The notes under the pieces were generated by a model. It did no database searches and was not told the DNA's origin. It was given only the letters and a program-made list of their open reading frames with translations. Shown here piece after piece: positions 6,176 to 40,933 of a DNA stretch of 55,875 nt. The position numbers and the translations under genes are program-made. Numbering within the stretch: the stretch's first letter is position 1; every line of letters begins with the position of its first letter. This DNA comes from Clostridia bacterium (GTDB taxonomy: Bacteria > Bacillota > DSM-12270 > Thermacetogeniales > Thermacetogeniaceae). The stretch lies in assembly GCA_902812435.1 (NCBI GenBank), contig CADDZA010000003.1:1-55875 (forward strand), given 5' to 3'.

Positions 6176-6622
6176 TCATTTTGTGTTCAACCGTTTTTCC
6201 AGGTAAAAACGATACGTCCGCAGTTCTTCATTCATTTTGTAAATAATGCGCTCAACCTCATGCTTGTCCAGCGTAACCTCAGACGGAGCGACTACTTCGA
6301 TTTTGCGGAACTCTTCCCTGAGTAGAAAAGGGATTACGTTTTCGATACTGTCGGCCTCTAGAATAAACTCAATGGGTGCGTAAGCAACTTCACGACCCGT
6401 TACCTCATCCCTTATTAGGTAGATTTCACCGTTGGTATTAATGTCCTCAACTTTAACACCCTGGATAGGGATATTGCGCAGTAAAATCGCTCTCTGTTCC
6501 CTGATTTCCTCGGCAACCTGTTCTCCGTCTTTACCCCGTGAAAAAATACGACCCGGCTTATCTTCTCCACGATAATCAAACCGAACTTTTAAACGTAATT
6601 TTTTATTATTTATTTCAGTCAT
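6176..6622 (-). CDS. Conserved-looking hypothetical protein, first gene of the HDOD operon
   Basis: 148 residues, soluble and highly charged (many Glu, Lys and Arg), with no signal peptide or membrane segment. The N-terminal part is beta-strand-like (KLRLKVRFDYRG, GVKVEDINTNGEIYLIRD, EVAYAPIEFILEAD) and the last 40 residues look helical (DKHEVERIIYKMNEELRTYRFYLEKRL). I do not recognise a family; a PilZ-like barrel was considered but the RxxxR signature is absent. It starts with ATG at 6622 and is followed 28 bases later by the HDOD gene, so a shared signalling role is the simplest guess. A SigH-like promoter lies just upstream. Confidence 0.68.
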   Translation of the reverse strand: MTEINNKKLRLKVRFDYRGEDKPGRIFSRGKDGEQVAEEIREQRAILLRNIPIQGVKVEDINTNGEIYLIRDEVTGREVAYAPIEFILEADSIENVIPFLLREEFRKIEVVAPSEVTLDKHEVERIIYKMNEELRTYRFYLEKRLNTK

Positions 6623-6730: not shown

Positions 6731-7519
6731 TTAATTTTTCTGTTCGAACAGCTTGCAATTTTCGATTTTAGGGGCGTGCTCGTTTTTCTTTCTCCTGGCA
6801 AGATCTTTTAAACGCTTGATTTCTTCTTGGGTTAGAAAACGATATTCCCCGGTTCGCAACCCTTTGAGAGTGAGAAAGGCAAGCTTGACGCGCTTCAACT
6901 CCACCACAGGGTGGCCTACATACCGGCACATCTTGCGGACCTGCCGTTTTTTCCCTTCCCGCAGGCTGATCTCCAGCAGAGCCTGTGAGCCTGGCAACTC
7001 TTTCAGCAGTTTGACACGTGCGGGAGCAGTTTTTCCCTCAGGAAGCGGAACCCCTTCGCGTAATCTATTCAAGGCTTTAGGGCACGGGATCCCTTTGACA
7101 AGAGCGTGGTAGGTTTTCCAAATTCCGTATTTCGGATGGGTTAACAGGTATGCCAATTCCCCGTCATTTGTTAAGAGAATTAAACCGCTTGTCTGGTAAT
7201 CCAGCCTTCCAACGGGAAAAAGACGTACCCCAGGGATATGTATAAGGTCGGTAACCTTTGGTCTTCCCTGGGGATCTTTTACTGTGGAAACATAACCTTT
7301 AGGTTTGTTGACAATCAAACAAACATGCCCTTGAGAAACGGTAAACTTTCTTCCGTCCACACATATCAGGTTCTTAGCGGGGTCGACCTTCATCCCAAGG
7401 GTCGCAACCTTACCGTCAACCCTCACCCTGCCTGCACGAATCAGATCTTCACAATAACGCCGGCTTCCGATGCCTGACCCTGCCAATACCTTTTGAAGCC
7501 GCTCTAGAGCAATCTTCAC
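6731..7519 (-). CDS. rluB: Pseudouridine synthase RluB/RsuA family
   Basis: 262 residues. An S4 RNA-binding domain covers residues 1-60 (LERLQKVLAGSGIGSRRYCE), followed by the RsuA/RluB catalytic domain with VNKPKGYVSTVKDP, the catalytic-aspartate motif GRLDYQTSGLILLTNDG, and REGKKRQVRKMCRYVGHPV. The family converts a specific uridine in 23S or 16S rRNA to pseudouridine; in Gram-positives this form is usually annotated RluB (23S U2605). The tail is lysine/arginine-rich. It starts with GTG at 7519 behind GGAGG, 26 bases after the chemoreceptor-fusion gene, and ends before the SigH-like promoter at 6699. Confidence 0.92.
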   Translation of the reverse strand: MKIALERLQKVLAGSGIGSRRYCEDLIRAGRVRVDGKVATLGMKVDPAKNLICVDGRKFTVSQGHVCLIVNKPKGYVSTVKDPQGRPKVTDLIHIPGVRLFPVGRLDYQTSGLILLTNDGELAYLLTHPKYGIWKTYHALVKGIPCPKALNRLREGVPLPEGKTAPARVKLLKELPGSQALLEISLREGKKRQVRKMCRYVGHPVVELKRVKLAFLTLKGLRTGEYRFLTQEEIKRLKDLARRKKNEHAPKIENCKLFEQKN

Positions 7520-7545: not shown

Positions 7546-8412
7546 TTATTCCAGCATAGCAAGTCGCTGGGCGATCTCTTCCAGGTTTCCGGCCACTCTC
7601 CCCAACTGCTCGATGGTGGCCGCCACCTGTTCGGTCGATGCGGCCTGGCGTTCGCTCACACCCGCCGTTTCGACGACTTCTATTATTATTTCACCTACAG
7701 ATTTTTCAATATTCCGCAGGATCGATCCGATTTGTTCTGCGGACACGGCGCTATCCTCTGCGAGTTTACGAACCTCATCGGCAACCACGGCAAAACCACG
7801 CCCGTATTCCCCGGCACGGGCAGCTTCAATAGCCGCATTCAGGCCTAACAGCTTTGTCTGGGTGGCCACTTTTTTGATAAAGTTCAGCACCTCTCCCGTA
7901 TCGGTCACATGTTGCTTCGCCGTATCTGCAATGCTCCCCAGCTTTTTACTCTGTACAGCCAGATTCTCAGCTCCCGCCGCAAGCTCCTGGGCTGTTGCCG
8001 CTATCTCCCTCACGCTCCTGTTCAGTTCATCGGCCATCGCCGCCAGTTGCTGTGCCTGGGCATGGAGTTCCTTGATCATATCATCCTTCTCACTATTGGA
8101 ATCAACCATGATCATCATCAAACGCGCCACATGGGAGTCCACGATGGTGGCCCCAGGAGGTTTATTTTTATGTAAAAGTTCCTGCACTTTTGGATTTCCT
8201 GTGACCTCGACCACTATCTCTAAATTGGGCAAACGCAGCAGATCCAAACAATCATGAAAGGTTTTCACGCCCAGTTCCCTGGCAAGTCTCATCCCAGGAG
8301 CATCTTCGTTTACATCCGCGATTCCGACCACCCTTACGTCTGGAAGGCCGTCCATTACCTTTAAAACTGCCAATCCACCTTTCCCTGCCCCAACAATTCC
8401 AACATTGATCAT
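7546..8412 (-). CDS. Soluble methyl-accepting chemotaxis-type signalling protein with N-terminal Rossmann domain
   Basis: 288 residues in two parts. Residues 1-~105 form a dinucleotide-binding fold: [19 protein letters not shown] carries a GxGxxG loop, then [14 protein letters not shown] and [14 protein letters not shown], as in aspartate/homoserine dehydrogenase-type NAD domains. Residues ~110-288 are a compact MCP signalling domain, with the hairpin tip [20 protein letters not shown] and [14 protein letters not shown] nearly identical to the family consensus. No membrane segment is present. The architecture suggests a cytosolic receptor sensing NAD(H), NADP(H) or a metabolite and acting on CheA/CheW. 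No catalytic domain of an oxidoreductase follows the Rossmann part. It has a SigH-like promoter with an exact 0A box. Confidence 0.85.
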
Positions 8413-8438
8413 TTTTGGTCCTCCCCTCGAAGCGATCT

Positions 8439-8466
8439 ATTTCGACATTTTGGCTTTTTTTCCTGC
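8439..8466 (-). promoter_or_regulatory. Predicted SigH-type promoter overlapping a consensus Spo0A box
   Basis: GCAGGAAAA (-35, 8458-8466), an 11-nt spacer and GTCGAAAT (-10, 8439-8446) match RnAGGAwWW and RnnGAAWW. TGTCGAA at 8441-8447 on the minus strand is the exact 0A-box core and overlaps the -10. The pair sits about 30 bases before the Rossmann-MCP start codon. The geometry is the same as in the spo0A promoter of this window (40907-40933). Confidence 0.6.
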
Positions 8467-8494: not shown

Positions 8495-9031
8495 TTACTT
8501 AAAGATCAGGTTGCAAAGAAATATTGAGAGGAGAAGTCCTGTCAGATCTGCAATCAGGCCCAGGGCCAGGGCGTGACGGTACTTTTTTATCCCAACTGAA
8601 CCGAAATATATAGTTAATACGAAAAAGGTTGTATCCGTGGTACCCTGCATAACAGAGGCAAGCCGGCCGATAAATGAATCAGGCCCGTAGGTTTTAACCA
8701 ACTCTGTGGCAATTCCCAGAGCGCTGCTTCCGGAAAGCGGTCTCATCAAAGCCAGGGGTAGAACCTCCGGAGGTGCTCCCAGGATTCCCAGTACAGGAGC
8801 ACATAAGCGAGCGAGCATGTCCATTGCTCCCGAGACCCGAAATACTTTGATCGCCACAAACATCGCAACAAGGTACGGAATAATCCGTACGGCTATCTGA
8901 AAACCCTCTGCCGCTCCCTGGATAAATGTCTCGTAGACAGGAAGGCGGCGCGCCCAGCCAAGCAGCAGGAACACGCAAAAGAGTACCGGAATCGCCCAGT
9001 TTGATATTTTTGCCAGGATCAACTCTAGCAC
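8495..9031 (-). CDS. spmB: Spore maturation protein B
   Basis: 178 residues, very hydrophobic, with a nucleoside-recognition/Gate-like fold: IVRIIPYLVAMFVAI, LMRPLSGSSALGIATELV and VMQGTTDTTFFVLTIYFGS. SpmB works with SpmA in dehydrating the spore core. Four to five membrane segments are apparent. Its start overlaps the spmA stop by a few bases, and the dacB-spmA-spmB order reproduces the Bacillus subtilis sporulation operon, there transcribed by SigE in the mother cell. Confidence 0.93.
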   Translation of the reverse strand: MLELILAKISNWAIPVLFCVFLLLGWARRLPVYETFIQGAAEGFQIAVRIIPYLVAMFVAIKVFRVSGAMDMLARLCAPVLGILGAPPEVLPLALMRPLSGSSALGIATELVKTYGPDSFIGRLASVMQGTTDTTFFVLTIYFGSVGIKKYRHALALGLIADLTGLLLSIFLCNLIFK

Positions 9032-9630
9032 CTTTTAAACCTCCTGTACCAGGGGCGGAGCAAAGTGCGCCAGAGAATATCAATGATGATTATAATAACC
9101 ATGGAGAGACCTGTTGCGATAATCGTAGGTGCAACTATTTCCGTCGGATTAGAGGATCCTGCTGCAACCCGGACACCTATAATAGTTGCGGGAATAAGGG
9201 TAAGACAGGAAGTATTGAGGGCCAGAAAAGTGCACATGGCATCTGAAGCCGTGCTGGGGTCGGGGTTTATTTTTTGAAGTTCCTCCATCGCTTTCAGACC
9301 AAAAGGCGTCGCAGCATTCCCCAGCCCGAGAATGTTCGCGCTGATATTCATAATAATGGCGCCCAAGGCTGGGTGTTCCGGGGGAACGCCGGGGAATAAA
9401 ATTCCGGTAAGAGGACGCATACAACGGGCAATAAAGGTAATGAGCCCGGATTGCTTGGCAATTTCCAGCATGCCCAGCCAGAGAGTCATGAGTCCGATCA
9501 GATCCAGGCAGACCTTTACCCCTTCATTCGCACCGCTGAAAAAAGTTCCGGTTACGAGCTCTATTTTCCCGGTAAGGGCTCCGACTAAAATACCTCCTAA
9601 AAACAATATAAGCCAGATCAGGTCGAGCAT
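9025..9630 (-). CDS. spmA: Spore maturation protein A
   Basis: 201 residues, polytopic membrane protein. Diagnostic stretches are GALTGKIELVTGTFFSGANE, ARCMRPLTGILFPGVPPEHP and NILGLGNAATPFGLKAMEEL, followed by ALNTSCLTLIPATIIGVRVA. Acts with SpmB in spore-core dehydration. It begins 35 bases after the dacB stop and overlaps spmB, so the three are one operon. Confidence 0.94.
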   Translation of the reverse strand: MLDLIWLILFLGGILVGALTGKIELVTGTFFSGANEGVKVCLDLIGLMTLWLGMLEIAKQSGLITFIARCMRPLTGILFPGVPPEHPALGAIIMNISANILGLGNAATPFGLKAMEELQKINPDPSTASDAMCTFLALNTSCLTLIPATIIGVRVAAGSSNPTEIVAPTIIATGLSMVIIIIIDILWRTLLRPWYRRFKRC

Positions 9631-25621: not shown

Positions 25622-25649
25622 ATTTCTCCATCTTCCCATAAAATCCTGC
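25622..25649 (-). promoter_or_regulatory. Predicted SigH promoter of spoIIAA-spoIIAB-sigF
   Basis: GCAGGATTT (-35, 25641-25649), an 11-nt spacer and GGAGAAAT (-10, 25622-25629) match the SigH consensus, placing the start near 25615 and the SD at 25598-25605. In B. subtilis the spoIIA operon is transcribed by SigH with Spo0A~P, so both sequence and position agree. I did not find an exact 0A box nearby. Confidence 0.7.
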
Positions 25650-40906: not shown

Positions 40907-40933
40907 ATTCGACGCGGCTACCCAATATCCTTC
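40907..40933 (-). promoter_or_regulatory. Predicted SigH promoter of spo0A with overlapping 0A-box-like site
   Basis: GAAGGATAT (-35, 40925-40933), an 11-nt spacer and GTCGAAT (-10, 40907-40913). CGTCGAA, one base from the TGTCGAA 0A box, covers the -10. This corresponds to the B. subtilis Ps promoter, activated by SigH and autoregulated by Spo0A~P. Confidence 0.7.

Follow-up and report, generated by a model that had tools for sequence, protein, structure and literature searches.

The window, a 55,875-nucleotide stretch of a contig from a Clostridia bacterium (Thermacetogeniaceae), carries a gene for a soluble chemoreceptor in which an N-terminal Rossmann module is joined to an MCP signaling hairpin. 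The explanation that best accommodates the evidence, with a probability of roughly 0.6, is that the protein is a chemoreceptor of the cytosol that responds to NAD(H), is produced as cells pass into stationary phase and feeds an ordinary CheA/CheW array; here the ligand, the coupling, the taxis output and the dependence on SigH are what we infer. The host is a spore-forming anaerobe.

Domain Organization of the Receptor

The gene and its parts are as follows.

7546..8412, minus strand: Rossmann-MCP soluble chemoreceptor gene, 288 aa (ORF, Pfam, family alignment, AlphaFold)
8140..8412, minus strand: N-terminal Rossmann sensory module, residues 1–91, with GxGxGG at 8–13 and Asp33 closing β2 (AlphaFold, conservation, fold matches)
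7555..8136, minus strand: antiparallel MCP hairpin, residues 93–286, tip near residue 201 (Pfam, AlphaFold, fold matches)
7972..8001, minus strand: methylation-like motif, residues 138–147 (pattern match only)
7615..7644, minus strand: methylation-like motif, residues 257–266 (pattern match only)

The reading frame opens with an ATG at 8412, preceded by a GGGGAGG Shine-Dalgarno sequence. In Pfam, residues 164–284 match MCPsignal (E 1e-29; 104 bits against a curated cut-off of 34.6), a partial match covering model positions 27–144 of 172, and residues 2–73 match GFO_IDH_MocA (E 2.6e-5) with 25.3 bits, barely above the cut-off of 24. The full-length AlphaFold model, calculated from a 39-sequence alignment, has a mean pLDDT of 90, and its pTM of 0.48 makes the placement of the two domains relative to each other uncertain. 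It consists of a five-strand Rossmann fold up to residue 91, a helix from 93 to 199, a turn at the tip and a return helix from 201 to 286. Both the Pfam domains and the model bear out the proposal of an earlier, sequence-only reading that a truncated Rossmann domain is fused to an MCP. The same reading called the MCP domain complete, which holds only in the sense of a short-class hairpin: each arm has ∼85 residues, about 12 heptads, and it is from this arm length in the model that the class is judged. The tip is invariant across 12 aligned family members. No membrane-like segment was found in the receptor, the maximum 19-residue Kyte-Doolittle value being 1.35.

Because the final Rossmann strand (residues 89–91) runs almost directly into the helix of the MCP arm in the AlphaFold model, a ligand-induced change in the Rossmann fold could pass straight into the hairpin. 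In the proposed mechanism, the N-terminal part would be a pared-down NAD(P)-binding Rossmann domain lacking a catalytic domain. The binding of NAD(H), or a change in its occupancy by NAD+ and NADH, would displace the first hairpin helix and thereby modulate CheA through CheW, serving as an input for energy or redox taxis.

A structure search with the full-length model returned the Bacillus subtilis YfmS-CheW model (9a72_A) and a T. maritima soluble receptor as the best PDB matches. YfmS, an orphan receptor, is likewise soluble (286 residues in the model), with an N-terminal sensor of ∼100 residues and a short MCP hairpin; the aligned part, with 32% identity, comprises 172 columns, roughly what the hairpin alone would fill. 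Soluble MCPs are a known kind; a Rossmann sensor on such an MCP, and the recurrence of that sensor before other outputs under SigH-type promoters, appear to be new as judged from the libraries searched and the open literature. The redox/oxygen receptors Aer and HemAT sense energy or redox state in the cytosol and couple it to an MCP domain, as is proposed here, but the sensor of Aer is an FAD-PAS domain (PMC9668731) and that of HemAT a globin (PMC7542364), in place of the Rossmann domain of the present receptor.

The Rossmann Module as a Candidate Dinucleotide Sensor

Predicted alone, the N-terminal domain reaches a pLDDT of 93 and a pTM of 0.86 (AlphaFold). Its best PDB matches are a DmpFG-type dehydrogenase subunit and NAD-bound proteins of the Gfo/Idh/MocA type, such as GenD2, KanD2 and YjhC. 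Enzymes of the Gfo/Idh/MocA type and the acylating acetaldehyde dehydrogenases (DmpF-type) are closest to it in fold and share its predicted architecture, the glycine-rich loop and the Asp ending β2. In contrast to these enzymes, the receptor has no catalytic/substrate domain, in the place of which Pfam and AlphaFold locate the MCP hairpin.

Rossmann folds that bind NAD are classically marked by a glycine loop together with an acidic residue closing the second strand. Both the GxGxxG loop and the acidic residue ending β2 are present in the receptor, and G8, G10, G13, D33, A44 and T71 do not vary in an alignment of 37 domains that represent several architectures. Since Gly8, Gly10, Gly13 and Asp33 are retained across architectures and the fold matches NAD-bound dehydrogenases, the ∼105-residue module is probably a dinucleotide sensor. 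The earlier suggestion of a cytosolic receptor with a domain of the dinucleotide-binding type agrees with this predicted fold, the conserved fingerprint and the hydropathy profile.

The fold could also accept another nucleotide or no ligand at all. In particular, the module may respond to an acyl-CoA, an aldehyde-related metabolite or a nucleotide other than NAD(H), in which case the protein would be a receptor for metabolites and not for redox state. That acylating aldehyde dehydrogenases are among the closest fold matches fits such a ligand, as does the variable gene neighborhood outside the family, which gives no clear clue to the ligand; the conserved G8, G10, G13 and D33, however, constitute a dinucleotide fingerprint, and the catalytic domain of the aldehyde dehydrogenases is absent. 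We regard this alternative as unlikely, though worth keeping in mind.

Neither Pfam nor NCBIfam holds a sensor model for the module, which gives only weak matches to enzyme families. A survey of sigma54 activators in Clostridiales lists PAS, GAF, ACT, CBS and other inputs, and no NAD-binding domain (PMC6615313). The titles and abstracts listed in searches of the open literature contain no description of a Rossmann input to an MCP or to a sigma54 regulator; an earlier account may exist elsewhere.

Distribution and Fusion Partners

A search of genome contigs with the full-length protein was swamped by the MCP hairpin, and the N-terminal domain was therefore searched alone. Strong matches were obtained in 10 of 20 genomes of the host family (searches at the level of order and class gave the identical 20 genomes), with syntenic copies 66%–89% identical to this receptor. 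Across the phylum, the domain was found in 108 of 398 genomes (E ≤ 1e-10); a second search, centered on Caloramator, drew on the same phylum and contributed little more.

The partners of the module identified by Pfam include, besides the MCP hairpin, a middle region followed by an MCP (L157), PAS-Sigma54_activat-HTH_8 (L163, L172), PAS-HTH_8 (L192) and GAF-PAS-HD (L188). Histidine kinases and receiver-domain proteins carrying the module were recognized by eye, from the sequence, in one genome each of Nitrospirae, of Armatimonadetes and of an uncultured organism (L245, L246, L251, L258). In the Armatimonadetes and Nitrospirae proteins L251, L258 and L246, the module lies behind receiver domains or before kinase/HD outputs. 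The Rossmann-PAS-sigma54-Fis regulators (such as L163 and L172, with a PrdR-like C-terminal part) come from the same phylum and have the same N-terminal module; their output is sigma54-dependent transcription, whereas that of the receptor would be a chemotaxis array.

As judged by these sequence searches, the Rossmann-MCP fusion is a real and widespread arrangement, and the MCP is one of several outputs served by a common input domain. The domain architecture proposed earlier was confirmed, but it is not unique, as the module is shared with sigma54, Fis, HD and kinase outputs. To call it "not a standard arrangement" was too strong: both MCPs and other regulators repeatedly use the module as their input domain, and SigH-type sites also occur at roughly one in four of the other MCPs sampled.

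A broader proposal, which we put forward tentatively and at somewhat less than even odds, is that the ∼105-residue unit is an unrecognized general NAD(H)-state sensor of Bacillota, present also in Nitrospirae and Armatimonadetes genomes, which serves chemoreceptors, sigma54 activators, kinases and HD domains, often under SigH, so that redox state would be read through several outputs at the end of growth. Anaerobes living near the thermodynamic limit need a tight NAD+/NADH balance. If the proposal is true, a Rossmann input common to chemotaxis and sigma54 regulation would be a direct route from cellular redox state to behavior, and a likely ligand class could be assigned to a large set of regulators now described by their output domains alone.

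A Conserved SigH-Type Promoter

The following elements lie upstream of the receptor gene or were used for comparison.

8458..8466, minus strand: SigH −35 element, GCAGGAAAA (pattern match; conserved in orthologs)
8440..8446, minus strand: SigH −10 element, GTCGAAA (pattern match; conserved in orthologs)
8441..8447, minus strand: exact 0A-box match, TGTCGAA, over the SigH −10; not conserved (sequence, footprinting)
40907..40933, minus strand: SigH-type promoter of spo0A, GAAGGATAT-N11-GTCGAAT, comparison site (pattern match)

The two elements of the receptor promoter are separated by 11 nt, within the spacing of 10–12 nt required of SigH sites, and the −10 ends 27 nt upstream of the ATG. The N11 geometry is that of the spo0A promoter, as had been claimed; the likeness does not extend to the 0A box, which at spo0A reads CGTCGAA and is one base off the consensus. 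A strict search of the genome gave 58 matches to the SigH pattern and 2 to its reverse, and the sites precede spo0A, motA, glmU, nadE, ftsE, a NADH-dehydrogenase-type subunit, HU and others (names assigned by eye). A further SigH-type site at 25623–25649 (minus strand) lies inside an over-long spoIIAA-like reading frame, shortly before a plausible true start, and resembles the classic SigH promoter of spoIIA.

To avoid circularity, upstream regions were scored with a matrix derived from 29 C. difficile SigH promoters (PMC7438776, Table 3). All 10 syntenic orthologs in the family have a site (15–21 bits, at −48 to −70), and the reverse strand has none. Outside the family, sites of at least 14 bits precede 27 of 54 Rossmann-MCP genes, compared with a single one on the reverse strand and an expectation of 2.3 from shuffled sequence. 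This proportion exceeds those for neighboring ORFs (19/153; p 7e-8) and for other MCP genes (6/25; p 0.025), p values that are indicative only, as the neighboring ORFs were called mechanically, so that they include some that are no genes, and related genomes do not count as independent samples. This phylogenetic footprinting supports the SigH −35/−10 promoter that had been proposed from the sequence alone. Of 16 Rossmann regulators whose output is not an MCP, 9 also have an upstream SigH-type site (L163, L168, L175, L178, L188 and L192 among them). The paralogs of two genomes (L106, L107) lack both the promoter and the synteny. As half of the Rossmann-MCP genes outside the family have no recognizable site and some of the other MCP genes do have one, this class of receptor is not set apart by SigH control.

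SigH is a sigma factor used by cells as growth slows, and the promoter would direct synthesis of the receptor as growth ends; its conservation makes the timing of expression testable in culturable relatives. Alternatively, the site may be unused, the gene being read through from spmA-spmB and the motif being a chance pairing of AGGA and GAA. The gap between spmB and the receptor is merely 82 nt, and AGGA-rich sequence is common near ribosome-binding sites. On the other hand, the site is kept in every syntenic ortholog although the intergenic sequence around it is in large part variable, its enrichment over reverse strand, shuffles and neighboring ORFs is strong, and most −10 elements lie about 26–62 nt upstream of the start codon. 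Read-through with an idle promoter is, in our judgment, very improbable.

The 0A-Box Match

The exact 0A box reported over the −10 is indeed present, at 8447–8441, but does not behave as an independent conserved element. Only 2 of the 10 syntenic orthologs (this gene and L104) have TGTCGAA; the others read CGTCGAA, AGTCGAA, TGGCGAA or TAGCGAA and yet keep the SigH elements. Among the SigH sites scored, 4 of 38 have the exact sequence. In C. difficile, the SigH −10 of spo0A, lplA and ssuA is itself TGTCGAA, and many others are TGTAGAA (PMC7438776, Table 3). Within the host genome, TGTCGAA occurs at the −10 in 7 cases, against 0.45 expected under a uniform model; over the 2.4 expected from the column make-up of the SigH sites the enrichment is mild (p 0.009), and some contribution of Spo0A is possible. 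SigH-type sites with an exact TGTCGAA at the −10 lie upstream of motA, glmU, ftsE and the NADH-dehydrogenase-type subunit of the host genome (gene names by eye; L228 (G000:C47), L226, L229 and L227). Footprinting and the overlap with the SigH −10 consensus led to rejection of the box as a separate element; the match appears to be largely explained by the SigH −10. Because the exact box is unconserved and overlaps this consensus, binding of Spo0A at the receptor promoter is possible but not supported.

Chemotaxis Partners and Gene Neighborhood

The host genome has four CheW-family matches, one of them in a 691-aa frame adjoining CheW; from its size and context, this CheW-domain protein is taken as CheA-like. 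The presence of CheW and the CheA-like protein led us to reject an orphan receptor lacking a chemotaxis system. Of the 15 family genomes with CheW, 10 have the receptor, as against none of the 5 that lack CheW (p about 0.016, hypergeometric), a co-occurrence confounded by incomplete genomes. An input to the array is favored over a stand-alone role because the receptor is confined to CheW-containing genomes within the family. The second short soluble MCP of the host genome (L005, 1504–2331, minus strand) is YfmS-like by eye and adjoins an mnmA-like gene.

The genes flanking the receptor in the window are as follows.

9025..9630, minus strand: spmA-like gene, Gate domain (Pfam; synteny)
8495..9031, minus strand: spmB-like upstream neighbor, Gate domain (Pfam; synteny)
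6731..7519, minus strand: rluB-type pseudouridine synthase gene, downstream, 26 nt after the receptor; possibly co-transcribed (Pfam; synteny)

The order spmA-spmB-receptor-rluB is found in all ten family genomes that have the receptor and in a single genome of another family (G053). This setting raises the alternative that the protein is a chemoreceptor-like input to the sporulation decision and not to motility, acting via CheA or another kinase. Its position within a sporulation gene cluster, the retained gene order and a SigH promoter with TGTCGAA speak for such a role. Against it, the other genomes with the fusion do not share the spm order, few sites retain the exact 0A box, and the presence of the receptor tracks CheW within the family; we consider a sporulation input improbable. 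The link to sporulation entry drawn earlier is not supported; among family members the gene accompanies the chemotaxis machinery (CheW). The spm neighborhood was also rejected as a general functional link, its order being absent outside the family except in the one genome.

At two loci outside the family (L303, L306), the Rossmann-MCP gene has soj/spo0J-like genes on one side and a hydG-like gene on the other (names by eye), which may point to a connection with redox. A 148-aa ORF of the window with no Pfam match (6176–6622, minus strand) precedes an HDOD gene in L100, L101 and L302 and follows rluB in L312.
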